Below, piece after piece: positions 1-4,630 of a stretch of DNA of 33,439 bases. The stretch covers positions 1 to 33,439 of the forward strand of contig CADDZN010000002.1 of assembly GCA_902812375.1 (NCBI GenBank), written 5' to 3'. Source of the stretch: a bacterium (GTDB lineage: Bacteria > Gemmatimonadota > Gemmatimonadetes > Gemmatimonadales > Gemmatimonadaceae). The translations under genes were made by a program, and so were the position numbers. The notes beneath the pieces are model-generated. The model was not told the DNA's origin. It ran no database searches and saw only the letters and a list, made by a program, of their open reading frames with translations. Within the stretch, counting starts at the first letter, position 1; every line of letters starts with the position of its first letter.

Positions 1-332
1 ACCGACGGTTCGAGCTGCCACCGGATATCGTTTCCGCCCCAGTTGTACTCGAGCGCCTTTGGAGCGTCCGCTCGCGTCACCTTCGTTTCCGTGACGTGTG
101 GGCTCGGCGCTCCAACTGTGGTGAGCTTGACCGTGGCTCCACGCGTACTGAGACTGCGATCGGCATCGAAGGGCGCCCATTCGCGGAGCTGCGCAGGATC
201 TGTAAGCGCTTTCCAGACTTTTTCGGGCGACTGGCGCAGCTCTCTGACCAGAACGAGCGTCCAGTTCTCTCCGTCCTTCTGTACTCGCGCATCACTGGCG
301 GGGCCCGGCGTGTACTGCTCGCGATCGGTCAT
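1..332 (-). CDS. SRPBCC (AHSA1-like) protein, 3' end cut by window edge
   Basis: The frame opens at an ATG (330-332) and stays open to base 1, so only the first 110 residues or so are present. The N-terminal part matches the Bet v 1-like SRPBCC/AHSA1 fold: a first strand (WTLVLVRELRQSPEKVW), then the helical KALTDPAQLREWAP motif typical of the family. These proteins bind hydrophobic ligands or act as Aha1-like domains; the ligand cannot be told. The start is supported by a strong Shine-Dalgarno (CGAGGAGAAAGAG) just upstream. Its ATG overlaps the arsR stop codon by the ATGA quartet, so the two are translationally coupled. ArsR-SRPBCC pairs are a common arrangement, which suggests the regulator controls its partner. 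The family call is firm; the substrate is unknown. Confidence 0.85.
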   Translation of the reverse strand, partial: MTDREQYTPGPASDARVQKDGENWTLVLVRELRQSPEKVWKALTDPAQLREWAPFDADRSLSTRGATVKLTTVGAPSPHVTETKVTRADAPKALEYNWGGNDIRWQLEPS

Positions 333-673
333 CTCTTTCTCCTCGTTTTTCGTTTGGTTGGTGGCGACCGATCCATTCGGTCGAGGTGGCGCTCGAGCGC
401 ATCGAGGTGAGTGGACCAGAACTGGCGGAAGGGCTCCAGCCAGTCATCGATCTCCTGAAGCGGTTCGGGCTTGAGCCGGTACAGGCGGCGCTGGGCGTCG
501 ACGGTTGCTTCCACAAATCCTGCCTCACGCAGTACTCGTAGATGCTTGGACACGGCCGGCTGCGGCATCCTCAAGCGACGCTCGATCTCTCCAACCGATC
601 GTTGTGACGACGCGAGAAGGCCCAGGATGGCGCGGCGGTTGGGCTCGGCGATGATTTCGAACACCGATTGCAT
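329..673 (-). CDS. ArsR/SmtB-family winged-helix repressor
   Basis: A 114-aa protein starting at MQSVFEIIAEPNRR. It has the classic ArsR layout: an N-terminal helix (IIAEPNRRAILGLL), a helix-turn-helix (VGEIERRLRMPQPAVSKHLRVLREAGFV, recognition helix PAVSKHLRVL) and a wing (VDAQRRLYRL). No cysteine metal-binding motif such as ELCVCD is present, so it belongs with the non-metal ArsR proteins that partner SRPBCC genes. A longer in-frame start 20 codons upstream exists, but it would put the -10 box inside the coding region, so the ATG at 671-673 is preferred. The gene overlaps the SRPBCC start by 4 bases. The -35 box of its promoter contains the stop codon of the upstream DUF2867 gene. Autoregulation through the dyad at 682-697 is inferred. 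Confidence 0.93.
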   Translation of the reverse strand: MQSVFEIIAEPNRRAILGLLASSQRSVGEIERRLRMPQPAVSKHLRVLREAGFVEATVDAQRRLYRLKPEPLQEIDDWLEPFRQFWSTHLDALERHLDRMDRSPPTKRKTRRKR

Positions 674-678
674 GGCTG

Positions 679-708
679 AACATACTGCTGGCGGTATATA
701 CGTGTCAA
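679..708 (-). promoter_or_regulatory. arsR promoter, probably leaderless
   Basis: On the minus strand a perfect -35 TTGACA (703-708) and a -10 TATGTT (679-684) are separated by 18 bp. Only five bases separate the -10 from the arsR ATG at 671-673, so transcription would start at or next to the A of ATG and no ribosome-binding site fits. The upstream DUF2867 stop codon (705-707) lies inside the -35 hexamer. Confidence 0.7.
682..697. promoter_or_regulatory. Dyad operator for the ArsR-type repressor
   Basis: The 16-bp sequence ATACTGCTGGCGGTAT is nearly self-complementary: ATAC/GTAT outer arms and GC/GC inner positions. It fills most of the -35/-10 spacer and overlaps the -10 box. That is where an ArsR dimer would block polymerase. 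The site is seen in the sequence; that ArsR binds it is inferred. Confidence 0.6.
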
Positions 709-1274
709 GGCATGTATTTCTCCAGCCAGGCACGCCGAATCCGGCGAAACATCAACGGATAGAGAATGAAACGCCGAAAGGGCTCGATCATCAGGAGATA
801 CAGGCCCGACACCGGTGACACGCGTCTGACATAGACCGCAAAGTAAAAACGGTAGCCATTCGCGATCGGCGAAAGCGCCACACTGACGTATCCGTGCACC
901 GTCGCATTCCGAATCTCACTCAGTGCCTCGGTCGGGTACTGATAAAGGACGAGGAACGAGCCGATGGTCGTGCCGGGAGTGACCTCTGAGTAACGGCGAT
1001 CTCGCTCAGACAGATGCGACACCAGAGAATCCGCTGGCTGCATCTTGATGCGGTCCCAGCCGAACGCGCGACCGAGGGAATAGCGCAGTCTCCAGAGCGT
1101 CTTTTCAATGGCGCCTGGCTTCGTCGAGGCTTCCAGCGCACGGATGTCAGCGATGGTTCGACCAACACCACCACCGGGAAGATCGACGGTAGATACGTCG
1201 TGAAGGGGCACGCCGCGCAGCAGCTCGTGCGCCCTAAGGGAAAGGCTCAGATACTCAGCCGGCGGAGCACGCAT
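705..1274 (-). CDS. DUF2867 family protein
   Basis: A 189-aa protein that resembles DUF2867, a domain found alone or fused to the C-terminus of SDR-type NAD(P)-binding proteins. Recognisable blocks are the TIADIRALEAS region, the central TPGTTIGSFLVLYQYPTEAL segment and the C-terminal RVSPVSGLYLLMIEPFRRFILYP stretch, where the domain ends in a hydrophobic helix. Its biochemical role is not known. An in-frame stop lies a few codons upstream of the ATG, which fixes the start region; no strong ribosome-binding site is visible. It follows the ABC permease by 35 bp on the same strand and probably belongs to that transcript. Its last codon sits inside the arsR promoter. Confidence 0.8.
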   Translation of the reverse strand: MRAPPAEYLSLSLRAHELLRGVPLHDVSTVDLPGGGVGRTIADIRALEASTKPGAIEKTLWRLRYSLGRAFGWDRIKMQPADSLVSHLSERDRRYSEVTPGTTIGSFLVLYQYPTEALSEIRNATVHGYVSVALSPIANGYRFYFAVYVRRVSPVSGLYLLMIEPFRRFILYPLMFRRIRRAWLEKYMP

Positions 1275-1309: not shown

Positions 1310-2065
1310 TCACTCCCAGCGGAATACTTTCGTTGAAATTGCTGTGAATACCGCAAACAAGATCAACAACGCCGCGACATTGACCAAGTGCGCACTCCAG
1401 CCCGATCCATCCCACACCCCATTCATGAGCGCGACCGCGTGCGTAACTGGCAAAACGTACGCGATCGCCTCGAGCCAGTGCGGAAGTCGAGCGACCGGAA
1501 AGAACAATCCCGACAGAGCCAGCATCGGATAAAGCACCAGTGCGCCGATCGGCTGCGCGAATCGCGCCGTCGGCACTAGACTCGCCAGCACAAATCCAAG
1601 TGATAGGATGCTGAACGTGCCTAGCAACACCGCGAGAGTAAAACTGAACACGTTCACTTGCATCACGCCGGGAAAGAGTCGCTTACCGGCAAGAACCAGT
1701 AGTGCCAGGCTGATGACCGTGAAACCGAGCTTCACCACCACCTGCGCACCCATGATCGTTACCGGCGAGAGCGGCGTCGACCGAAGGCGCTTGAGGATTC
1801 CGCCTTCTCTGTAGATCGAGATGATCGCGGTCAATGATTGCACCGCGCTGATCGCGATCAATACTGCTGCGAGGATCGCCGCATTGAACGGCATGTCGAC
1901 GGGCGGCGCGACCGCGGGCTTCCCGAGGCTGAACGCGCGACCCAACGCGATGAACACGAGCAACGGCATAACGAGCGTCCCGACGAAGCCCATTGGCTCG
2001 CGGGTGAAGATCTTGGTCTCGAGCCAGGTGAGCTTCCAGAATCCGCGCAGGAATCGAGGCGTCAT
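1310..2065 (-). CDS. ABC-2 type transporter permease
   Basis: A 251-aa integral membrane protein of the ABC2 membrane family. About six hydrophobic segments are visible, beginning with FVGTLVMPLLVFIALGRAF and ending with VNVAALLILFAVFTAIS. The SIYREGGILKRLRSTPLSP segment is the cytoplasmic coupling motif typical of DrrB/NodJ-like permeases, and the LVLYPMLALSGLFFPVARLP segment is the usual fifth-helix motif. The ATG overlaps the ATPase stop by one base (TGATG), so translation is coupled. The likely role is export of a drug, lipid or polysaccharide; the substrate is not determined by sequence. Confidence 0.93.
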   Translation of the reverse strand: MTPRFLRGFWKLTWLETKIFTREPMGFVGTLVMPLLVFIALGRAFSLGKPAVAPPVDMPFNAAILAAVLIAISAVQSLTAIISIYREGGILKRLRSTPLSPVTIMGAQVVVKLGFTVISLALLVLAGKRLFPGVMQVNVFSFTLAVLLGTFSILSLGFVLASLVPTARFAQPIGALVLYPMLALSGLFFPVARLPHWLEAIAYVLPVTHAVALMNGVWDGSGWSAHLVNVAALLILFAVFTAISTKVFRWE

Positions 2066-2916
2066 CAGTCCCTGATTCCGTGGCCCGTCAATTTCAGAAA
2101 AACATCTTCCAGCGTCGGCATCTCGGTACGAAACCCGCGCACGCGGATACCTTCGCGCGCGATCAGGTTGATCACGTCGGTCACGAAATCATCGCCGGCG
2201 CCGACGATCGTGTACATCGACGCGTTTCCATTCGAGCCCACAACGACTCCAACCCGCGCCATCCGCTGGGCTACGTTCGCGTCGTCGCTGGTAAACACGA
2301 CTGCGCGCTCTGGACAATGCTTATGCACCAGCTCGGCGGGCGTACCGCACTCGATGATCCGACCGTGCTCGATGATCGCTACCCGGTCGCAGAGTTTCTC
2401 AGCCTCTTCCATCAGATGTGTCGTCAGGAACACCGTCGTGCCGCGATCTCTGATTCCAGTGACGAGCGACCAGATCGCGCGCCGCGCCTGCGGATCGAGA
2501 CCAGTTGTGAGCTCGTCGAGGAACACCACTTCGGGCTCGTGAATGAGCGCGAGCGCGATGAACAGCCGCTGCTTCTGCCCGCCCGAGAGCGTCATGAACC
2601 ACGCGTTGCGCTTCGGTTCGAGACCGAGCCGGGCGAGGAGCGCGTCACTATCGACGACGGCGCGATCGTAGAGTGAGCGCCAGAGATCTACTGCTTCCCA
2701 GACCTTGATCCTCTTTTGGAGCTGCGCCTCCTGGTGCTGCACGCCGATGCGCTGCCGGAGCGCATGTGCATCGCGACGCGGGTCGAGGCCAAGCACCTTG
2801 ATAGTTCCTTTGTCCGGAACGCGATTGCCCTCGACGCATTCCATTGTCGTCGTTTTGCCGGCGCCGTTCGGGCCTATCAGGCCAAAGATCTCGCCCTCGA
2901 AAACTTCGAGTGACAC
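2065..2916 (-). CDS. ABC-2 transporter ATP-binding protein
   Basis: From the GTG at 2914-2916 the protein is 283 aa. It shows a Walker A (GPNGAGKT, residues 15-22), Q-loop (QHQEAQL), signature (LSGGQKQR), Walker B with catalytic Glu (VVFLDEL) and the H-loop His (LTTHLMEEAE), followed by the C-terminal extension common in DrrA-like subunits. The open frame continues upstream to about 3024 and encodes the first strand and A-loop of the domain (ITVSNLGKRYGDTVAVDD) without any ATG, GTG or TTG. The real start is therefore probably a rare codon (CTG at 2982, or GTC/ATC at 2973/2970). It is co-transcribed with the kinase upstream and the permease downstream. The family call is firm; the start is uncertain. 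Confidence 0.92.
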   Translation of the reverse strand: MSLEVFEGEIFGLIGPNGAGKTTTMECVEGNRVPDKGTIKVLGLDPRRDAHALRQRIGVQHQEAQLQKRIKVWEAVDLWRSLYDRAVVDSDALLARLGLEPKRNAWFMTLSGGQKQRLFIALALIHEPEVVFLDELTTGLDPQARRAIWSLVTGIRDRGTTVFLTTHLMEEAEKLCDRVAIIEHGRIIECGTPAELVHKHCPERAVVFTSDDANVAQRMARVGVVVGSNGNASMYTIVGAGDDFVTDVINLIAREGIRVRGFRTEMPTLEDVFLKLTGHGIRD

Positions 2917-3007
2917 ATCATCGACGGCGACTGTGTCTCCATAGCGCTTGCCGAGGTTGGAGACGGTGATGACGGGGAGCAGGACGAATCCGGTTTGCGG
3001 CGTTGCG

Positions 3008-4630
3008 TCAGACCCGCGCGAACGTTAGGTCCAAGCCTCGAACGGCGTCTGCAGTTGCGCCGCGATGTCCCTTCCACCATTCACTTGCCTGCTTCTCCCC
3101 CCATGCCTCTGTAGGTACCCAGCTCAAAGCATCCGAGAACTCCTTCGCGGATTGGGGACGATCGTTCGGATCCTTCGCGAGAGCCTTGATGATCAACCGG
3201 TCGAGCGCAGGTGGGATTGATTGCGTCGTGCGCTGGGAAGGCGGGACAGGTTCGGCCTGCAGATGCTTGGCGATCAGATTGATCGCTTTGTCGCCGCCAA
3301 ACACGAGCTCTCCAGTCAGGAGAAAATACGCGACGCAACCCAACGCGTAGATGTCCGTGCGTGCATCCACTGTCTCGCCGAGCGCCATCTCGGGCGACAT
3401 GTAAGCCGGAGTTCCGATCGCCATCTGGCCGGGAATAGTTGCAAGAGCTTCCTGCGGAGCGACGTCCGTGACCGCCTTCACGAGTCCAAAATCCATGACC
3501 TTGACGAAGTCGTGTTTTCGGCCAACGCGTCCCACATGGATGTTCGCGGGCTTGATGTCGCGGTGCACCAATCCATAACTGTGCGCCTCGTCCAGTGAAT
3601 CACACACCTGTCGCAGGATGTACGTGACACGCCCCGGAGAGAGCGGACCCTTTTGCTGAACGAGCGTCTCGAGGTCCATCCCGTCGAGATACTCCATCAC
3701 GAGGTACAGAGTATTGTCGGCGGTCACGCCGAAGTCGTACAGCTCCACCGTGTGCTCCGACCGAAGGTTTGCCGCCGCCTCTGCTTCTCGGCGAAAACGC
3801 GTGATGGCGAGCCGCGCTGTCTCTTCGTCCGCTGCGCCGAGCATCTCTGGCCGAATGAGTTTTATTGCGGCTGGACGAGCGAGCATGCGGTGCTTCGCTT
3901 TGTAGACTTCTCCCATTCCTCCGCGACCCAACAGCTCGCCGAGTTGATAGCTGCCCATCTCGCGGGCCTTCGTCACCTGCTGGCCGAGTCGGGTAACAAC
4001 GTGAGAGATCAGGACCGCAGCGCCGACCAGGATGAAGTCGGGGTAGTGCATGAGCAGCGCACCAATCGGTGGACCGAAATCCCAATGTCCCTGCGCGCGG
4101 GCGATCAGCATTGCGATTGGGTTCATAGATGCGGCAACGACTCCAACAGCCAACATCTTGAGTGGCGGAGTAGGAACGATTGCGGCGAACATCAGCAGCA
4201 GAGCGCCGACCCACGAGATCTGAGTAGTGAGCTGGTATTCTTTTGGTACATCGCCGACGTGCCACAGAATACCAAGCGCCAGCGAGCTCAGGATCAGGTA
4301 GCCGAGGCCGATGTCCAGAATCGTCTTCGGCTCGCGCCGACTCCGGCGCGTGTACGCGAAGAGTGCGAGCGACACGAGCACCATCACTACCGCAATGCCG
4401 TCGGTAGTGTCGAAAACTGCCCACGGAACGTTGTTCGCTGAGAGTGCGCCTGCTAAGTGACCGGTGACAGTGCCAATTATCCACAGGGCCGCGAACAGCA
4501 GCGCCAGGATCCCCAGCCTCAGCGAGGCCTCGCGCAGCAAATCTTCTGGAATCTCCTGTCTTCCGCCGGAGCGGCGTCCGCCGGACGGCGTCGAAGTCGG
4601 CGACGGAGCAATCAACTTCGCTAGCGACAT
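3008..4630 (-). CDS. Membrane-anchored Ser/Thr protein kinase
   Basis: A 540-aa protein with an N-terminal membrane part of about six helices (roughly residues 36-214) and a C-terminal Hanks-type kinase domain from about residue 228. Visible kinase motifs are the glycine loop (GRGGMGEVYKA, 235-245), catalytic Lys257 (AAIKLI), HRDIKPAN (356-363, catalytic Asp358), DFG (380-382) and GTPAYMSPE in the activation segment. All catalytic residues are intact, so it should be active. In most bacterial PknB-like kinases the order is reversed, with the kinase domain first and a single helix after it; here the membrane sensor is N-terminal. No extracellular PASTA domain is present. The gene leads into the ABC transporter genes on the same strand. 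Confidence 0.95.
   Translation of the reverse strand: MSLAKLIAPSPTSTPSGGRRSGGRQEIPEDLLREASLRLGILALLFAALWIIGTVTGHLAGALSANNVPWAVFDTTDGIAVVMVLVSLALFAYTRRSRREPKTILDIGLGYLILSSLALGILWHVGDVPKEYQLTTQISWVGALLLMFAAIVPTPPLKMLAVGVVAASMNPIAMLIARAQGHWDFGPPIGALLMHYPDFILVGAAVLISHVVTRLGQQVTKAREMGSYQLGELLGRGGMGEVYKAKHRMLARPAAIKLIRPEMLGAADEETARLAITRFRREAEAAANLRSEHTVELYDFGVTADNTLYLVMEYLDGMDLETLVQQKGPLSPGRVTYILRQVCDSLDEAHSYGLVHRDIKPANIHVGRVGRKHDFVKVMDFGLVKAVTDVAPQEALATIPGQMAIGTPAYMSPEMALGETVDARTDIYALGCVAYFLLTGELVFGGDKAINLIAKHLQAEPVPPSQRTTQSIPPALDRLIIKALAKDPNDRPQSAKEFSDALSWVPTEAWGEKQASEWWKGHRGATADAVRGLDLTFARV

Follow-up and report, generated by a model that had tools for sequence, protein, structure and literature searches.

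A probable leaderless, autorepressed arsR-SRPBCC operon with a conserved operator-promoter in a member of the Gemmatimonadaceae

The 33,439-nucleotide stretch of gemmatimonadotal DNA analysed here (hereafter the window) carries near one end an arsR gene whose start codon lies only five bases beyond a -10 box, which raises the question of whether the message begins with the start codon itself and whether the encoded regulator controls this same promoter. RNA polymerase commonly starts about 7 nt past the -10 box, and with that spacing arsR transcription would start on or beside the start codon. An earlier note on this DNA had described a TTGACA and a TATGTT box followed by the ATG after five bases, the lack of a ribosome-binding site and the stop codon of the upstream DUF2867 gene within the -35 box. 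All three observations are confirmed: the features fall as listed in Table 1, and the best Shine-Dalgarno duplex in the 20 nt upstream of the ATG has an energy of 0.0 kcal/mol. The next possible arsR start in the window is codon 4 (GTG), where a start codon is found in 17 of the 44 genes compared below.

Table 1. Coordinates of the features at the arsR locus, in positions of the window
Feature	Position	Strand	Description
-35 box TTGACA	703..708	minus	exact in 36 of 44 compared arsR genes
-10 box TATGTT	679..684	minus	18-nt spacer (702-685) from the -35 box; TAT equidistant in 42-43 of 44
Gap CAGCC, -10 box to ATG	674..678	minus	5 nt
arsR ATG	673-671	minus	transcription predicted to begin at A673 or next to it
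Operator-promoter core	680..716	minus	half-sites TACATGC (716-710), GTATATAC (701-694) and GTATGT (685-680)
Dyad I	696..715	minus	arms 715-710 and 701-696, centre 705.5; straddles the -35 box
Dyad II	680..699	minus	arms 699-694 and 685-680, centre 689.5; over spacer and -10 box
arsR coding sequence without stop	332..673	minus	114 aa; stop TGA 331-329; ArsR-type winged-helix regulator
SRPBCC/AHSA1 gene	3..332	minus	cut by the contig end; PF10604 34.1 bits, PF08327 33.7 bits
DUF2867 gene	705..1274	minus	PF11066 65.9 bits; stop TGA 707-705 in the arsR -35 box

The regulator belongs to the ArsR family according to several profiles (PF01022, 57 bits with a cut-off of 22; PF12840, 52.2; NF033788, 80.9 with a cut-off of 55), and it scores 59.3 against the SdpR-type autorepressor profile NF033789, below the 100-bit cut-off of that profile. 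The window protein has no cysteine, and so no cysteine-based sensing site; cysteine is likewise absent from the first 130 residues in 40 of 44 orthologues, the window included, and thiol-type sensing by this ArsR is unlikely for that reason. Directly after arsR comes the SRPBCC/AHSA1 gene, the arrangement of the ArsR-COG3832 modules discussed below, with its ATG (332-330) overlapping the arsR stop by four bases (ATGA) and a strong Shine-Dalgarno sequence of its own (-8.4 kcal/mol). An SRPBCC match was found within 800 nt downstream of arsR in 28 of the 44 loci and within 400 nt in 23, counts to which 5 loci contribute less than 900 nt of downstream sequence. Three other next genes were scanned, and proved to be glyoxalase-family in L031 and L064 and DoxX-like in L033. 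Neighbourhoods built from longest open reading frames (ORFs) were set aside, since antisense ORFs confounded them in the GC-rich DNA.

On the upstream side, the DUF2867 gene is a neighbour and stands outside the unit. A stop codon in the -35 box was not seen as general to the unit, for the ends of upstream ORFs vary across the 44 loci compared; the one other upstream gene identified, at L002, encodes a GNAT acetyltransferase. Preceding DUF2867 in the window, the minus strand of 1310-4630 holds an ABC-2 permease and an ABC ATPase, both recognised by profiles, and a protein-kinase-like ORF recognised by eye.

The loci fetched for the comparison (L001-L089) comprise that of the window and 88 relatives, and 44 arsR genes including that of the window were kept. 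Of these, 43 share at least 60% identity over a match that begins no later than residue 5; the remaining one is L070, whose start was taken from the peptide-pattern fetch of relatives. Three loci that match in part (L066, L073 and L074, 77-82%) were dropped, as were the 42 below 60% identity. The 43 others kept are 66-85% identical to the window gene. By title they comprise 27 Acidobacteriota, 4 Gemmatimonadota, 2 Chloroflexota, 2 Vulcanimicrobiota, one each of Bacillota, Binatota and Verrucomicrobiota, L064 (Candidatus Sericytochromatia, given without phylum in the table) and 4 kin of the window's genome, with the qualification that most are metagenome bins whose phylum labels may be wrong; the titles of KBS 96 (Acidobacteriaceae, L031) and Dictyobacter kobayashii (L044) do not describe them as such. 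The starts of L043 and L054 were shifted by one codon to an adjoining GTG (for the information profile and identity analyses, that of L043 only). Start codons in the 44 genes are GTG in 26, ATG in 16 and TTG in 2, and their conservation is partly selected since the peptide patterns used for fetching included the N-terminus, which does not apply to the promoter.

Taken by itself, the window gives little reason to believe in the promoter. A consensus promoter scan of 2.4 kb of it returned one match, the arsR promoter, and shuffled sequences returned 0.8 +/- 0.9, which means that the boxes in the window sequence alone are no better than chance; the promoter owes its significance to conservation and to the way in which site and gene go together, and not to single-sequence statistics. 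When the 44 promoters are aligned on the -35 box, columns -100 to -21, a randomised flank, average 0.036 bits, and 25 of the 29 columns of the core TATATnCCTTGACAnGYATATRC-N8-GTATAT hold 0.9-1.95 bits. Pairwise identity among the 44 genes falls from 0.81 in the core to 0.34 within the inner spacer and 0.26 in the flank, and the core of the window has a mean identity of 83% to the other promoters. Because the core identity exceeds that of fourfold-degenerate codon sites in the same genes (0.81 versus 0.50), the control block is, judged by this comparison, constrained and not merely recent. A GAAACC(G)TTGCC-like stretch was seen by eye about 50-75 nt before arsR in the Acidobacteriota copies L032, L035, L036, L037, L039 and L052, the remaining flank being dissimilar.

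The distances within the block are fixed as well. Relative to the -35 box, the TAT of the -10 block occupies columns 24-26 (T in 42, A in 43 and T in 43 of 44), and, with an 18-nt spacer, 37 of the 44 genes have a gap of 6 nt from -10 box to start codon, 4 have one of 7 nt, 2 (the window being one) have 5 nt and 1 has 9 nt. A search confined to spacers of 16-19 nt, in which 17 and 18 were slightly favoured, returns the 18-nt spacer in 43 of 44 genes. When TATAAT is simply matched across spacers from 14 to 21 nt, the best match falls on 18 alone in 15 genes and on 20 alone in 11; in 17 genes, 18 ties with 20 or 21, and 1 gene prefers 19. The -10 register is not unique in the relatives, and in those of the TATATA type the hexamer may lie two bases nearer the start codon.

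The neighbourhood of the promoter offers a different account of how arsR is expressed. DUF2867 shares the strand of arsR and stops 31 nt short of it, for which reason read-through messages into arsR are likely too, and with the ABC-type genes also co-oriented, arsR might be transcribed mainly from the upstream ABC transporter and DUF2867 genes, with a leader, the conserved block being merely an operator. As the main route of expression we consider this unlikely: between loci with different upstream ORF ends and a randomised flank, the -35 box, the TAT block and their spacing from the start codon stay fixed, and a read-through message in the window would carry no Shine-Dalgarno sequence for arsR.

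The same alignment indicates where the regulator would bind. The two best symmetry centres of the 44 promoters lie 18.5 and 2.5 nt from the start of the -35 box (0.59 and 0.57 complementary, with a median of 0.24 over all centres). They correspond to two dyads of similar build, ATATnC-N8-GYATAT and ATATRC-N8-GTATAT, which have GYATATRC in common and whose centres are 16 bp apart, and the bases between the arms of dyad II vary across the promoters. Here the earlier note needs amendment: the "near-perfect 16-bp dyad" that it had placed at 682-697 is a real site, its centre at 689.5 being that of conserved dyad II, and its description is generous, since ATACTGCTGGCGGTAT (682-697) pairs at 6 of 8 positions; nor does it simply fill the spacer, as it takes 685-697 of the spacer 685-702 and runs three bases into the -10 box. 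The predicted operator is larger than that segment and consists of two overlapping 20-bp dyads, very probably bound by the protein of this arsR. In other words, conserved dyads predicted as operator overlap the gene's own promoter, the arrangement of an autorepressed operon, and bound ArsR would be expected to cover the promoter by analogy with its family member Rv2034. Other ArsR-family genes of the phylum (L008, L010, L011, L014) carry AACC/GGTT-type palindromes near the start, which apparently form a second operator class; in L009, at about 1469-1484, a palindrome GTAACCCAATGGTTAC encloses an ATG.

Leaderless genes can be recognised as a class from the spacing of their promoters, TAnnnT-type signals close to the start having been read in this way in passages of PMC3160421. 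Across 252 ORFs with 455 candidate starts, from 399 kb of the window's genome, TAnnnT is most frequent 12 nt upstream of starts, with 16 occurrences versus about 2.8 per distance over 14-49 nt (maximum 7), and it occurs at 11-13 nt in 24 genes versus 4-12 at seven control offsets. A Shine-Dalgarno sequence is present in 1 of these 24 genes versus 62 of 252 overall. These counts show a leaderless spacing class in the window's genome. The window arsR has the TA-led pattern, with TAnnnT at a distance of 11 nt from its start and the duplex of 0.0 kcal/mol, and most relatives have the 6-nt gap given above; its particular distance of 11 nt is not enriched in its own genome (3 versus about 2.8). Among the 42 loci below 60% identity, TAnnnT is found at 11 nt in 4 and at 13 nt in 8, with mostly 0-3 and at most 5 elsewhere, an enrichment set aside as weak as at least 3 of the 13-nt matches are TAACCT and part of another palindrome.

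In the orthologues, the picture is less uniform. Of the 44 genes, 21 have a Shine-Dalgarno duplex of -5 kcal/mol or better within 20 nt upstream of arsR. Part of this signal comes from GGAG in the spacer or -10 box, present in 12 genes, and from Shine-Dalgarno four-mers between -10 box and start, present in 10. With transcription from the start codon, such upstream motifs would be absent from the message. The duplexes and the GGAG near the -10 box would fit a short leader in many orthologues, with a start some 15-25 nt upstream and the -10 box a by-product of an AT-rich half-site. This we regard as very improbable: the window lacks a signal of this kind, 36 of 44 genes have an unaltered TTGACA, and the TAT block keeps its distance from both the -35 box and the start codon, which the half-sites alone would not demand. 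Both modes of initiation may nevertheless coexist in the Gemmatimonadetes, given that this class is among those with an SD:antiSD profile in the relevant part of PMC10783764.

Whether the dyads serve this arsR or some other regulator can be judged from where the site occurs. In 298 genomes of the phylum, 18 of the 19 arsR matches of at least 60% identity have it at a distance of 8-18 nt on their upstream side, as against none of the 7 weaker ones. The exception is G275 (L134, G275:C8; also L066), an arsR without its first 12 residues and promoter; in L134 and L066, unrelated sequence replaces both, which amounts to truncation or misassembly. Locus sets overlap in places (L069 and G238 are the same position, and L066 is probably on the same contig as G275). 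Searched directly in the 298 genomes, the exact site occurs at 10 places, all before this arsR, and with at most one mismatch 14 of 16 places are before it; at most two mismatches give 47 rows versus 10 for a reversed-pattern control. In 61 related genomes, the site with at most two mismatches is present in 10, occurring once in the window's own, and the reversed control gives none.

A wider regulon was considered on the basis of the 27 of 47 rows that lie away from arsR matches. Fifteen off-arsR places were read (13 of these rows and 2 from the 61-genome set), and at 5 of them an ORF of at least 60 aa starts no more than 70 nt away. Two of these 5 are ArsR-like (L135 by a homology match, L131 by eye), and on the places read a regulon is not put forward.

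Since two more distant ArsR genes of the 61-genome set carry the site (L007, 49% identity, 2 mismatches; G006:C66, 48%, 1 mismatch), the site is not confined to close orthologues; this, and the fact that ArsR binding is predicted only, would suit a different protein acting on the dyads at a leaderless promoter without autoregulation. We hold that to be decidedly improbable, because the site tracks this arsR across the 298 genomes and is single in its own, a pattern that points to a dedicated autoregulator.

The best explanation is a leaderless, autorepressed arsR-SRPBCC operon, to which we assign a probability of roughly 0.75. More specifically, RNA polymerase would use TTGACA-18-TATGTT and start at or within 1-2 bases of A673, so that the ArsR message would begin with the start codon and be translated without a Shine-Dalgarno sequence. 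Dimers of ArsR on the two overlapping ATATRC/GYATAT dyads would cover the -35 box, the spacer and most of the -10 box and thus exclude polymerase until some signal, probably not a thiol-bound metal in view of an ArsR without cysteine, lifts the repression. SRPBCC would be made from the same message, by way of the 4-base overlap and its own Shine-Dalgarno sequence. The compact, self-regulated leaderless unit proposed in the earlier note is supported, at the level of comparative sequence, in that promoter, operator and start distance are conserved together and the flank is not, and in the 14 of 16 site places. Counting against it are the gap of 5 instead of 6 nt in the window, the unenriched 11-nt distance, the -10 register and the Shine-Dalgarno duplexes of 21 orthologues.

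Several parts of such a unit have precedents. Two-gene modules of ArsR and COG3832 (Aha1/SRPBCC) were described by Makarova et al. 2009, with metal-binding motifs missing in that ArsR subfamily (passages of PMC2701414); the gene pair is the same as here, as is the non-uniform distribution, and those passages on ArsR-COG3832 describe no operator, promoter or leaderless start. Unlike those modules, some units here have a glyoxalase-family or DoxX-like gene beside arsR. The closest experimental parallel is Rv2034 of Mycobacterium tuberculosis (Rv2034-Rv2036), an ArsR autorepressor demonstrated by experiment with a footprint from -30 to +3, for which one half-site is enough and paired sites bind better (PMC3338718, in the parts consulted). 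There too an ArsR-like regulator is followed by a Polyketide_cyc2-domain gene and the footprint extends to the start codon, whereas the operator arms are CCGTAAGT with a 4-nt spacer, as against ATATRC-N8-GYATAT here, and the main text of that paper has no mention of leaderless, transcription start or Shine.

TA-led leaderless genes, with TAnnnT about 12 bp before the start, occur in 3 of 3 Acidobacteria genomes and make up 9.7-19.4% of genes in the pertinent sections of PMC3160421; they share the TAnnnT spacing but form a genome-wide class without a built-in operator, and Gemmatimonadota are not mentioned in the main text. Regulators with leaderless messages are known in lambda cI, Tn1721 tetR and CvkR, which the authors tie to mobile elements (part of PMC9938897), but these are other systems. 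The present operator-promoter was not found described in the literature searched, which leaves most subscription journals outside. Known, then, are the ArsR-SRPBCC pair, autorepression at the start codon and leaderless genes; new is an unusually well-conserved example with this operator-promoter.

The distribution of the gene bears on its history. Within the phylum it is patchy, with an arsR match at 1e-25 or better in 24 of 298 genomes. The window protein is 85% identical to that of L037 (Acidobacteriota), 84% to L033 and 83% to L048 (both Gemmatimonadota-titled), and 70-76% to L002-L004, three genomes of its genus and family; copies in the same-family genomes G222 and G262 reach 80-82%. A single clade of nine Gemmatimonadota-type rows is weakly rejected (p-AU 0.033) in a tree that excluded L007, L008, L009, L068 and L070. 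Transfer of arsR between phyla is likely, with the reservations that the window gene stands about equally close to Gemmatimonadota-titled and to Acidobacteriota copies, that few branches are well supported (5 of 45) and that the records are mostly bins. A more speculative proposal, which we put forward as doubtful, is that of a host-independent cassette: with promoter, two operators and start locked in about 45 bp and no Shine-Dalgarno sequence needed, the unit might work on arrival across phyla, and the block would have stayed nearly unchanged over many transfers, in contrast to drifting flanks and silent sites.

At a general level, the locus illustrates that a promoter call at chance level in one sequence can be decided by comparison of the same gene across genomes. 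For the widespread ArsR-SRPBCC subgroup to which it belongs, the analysis gives a precise prediction of operator and start point, and it offers a candidate system for asking whether leaderless regulators cross phyla more easily.
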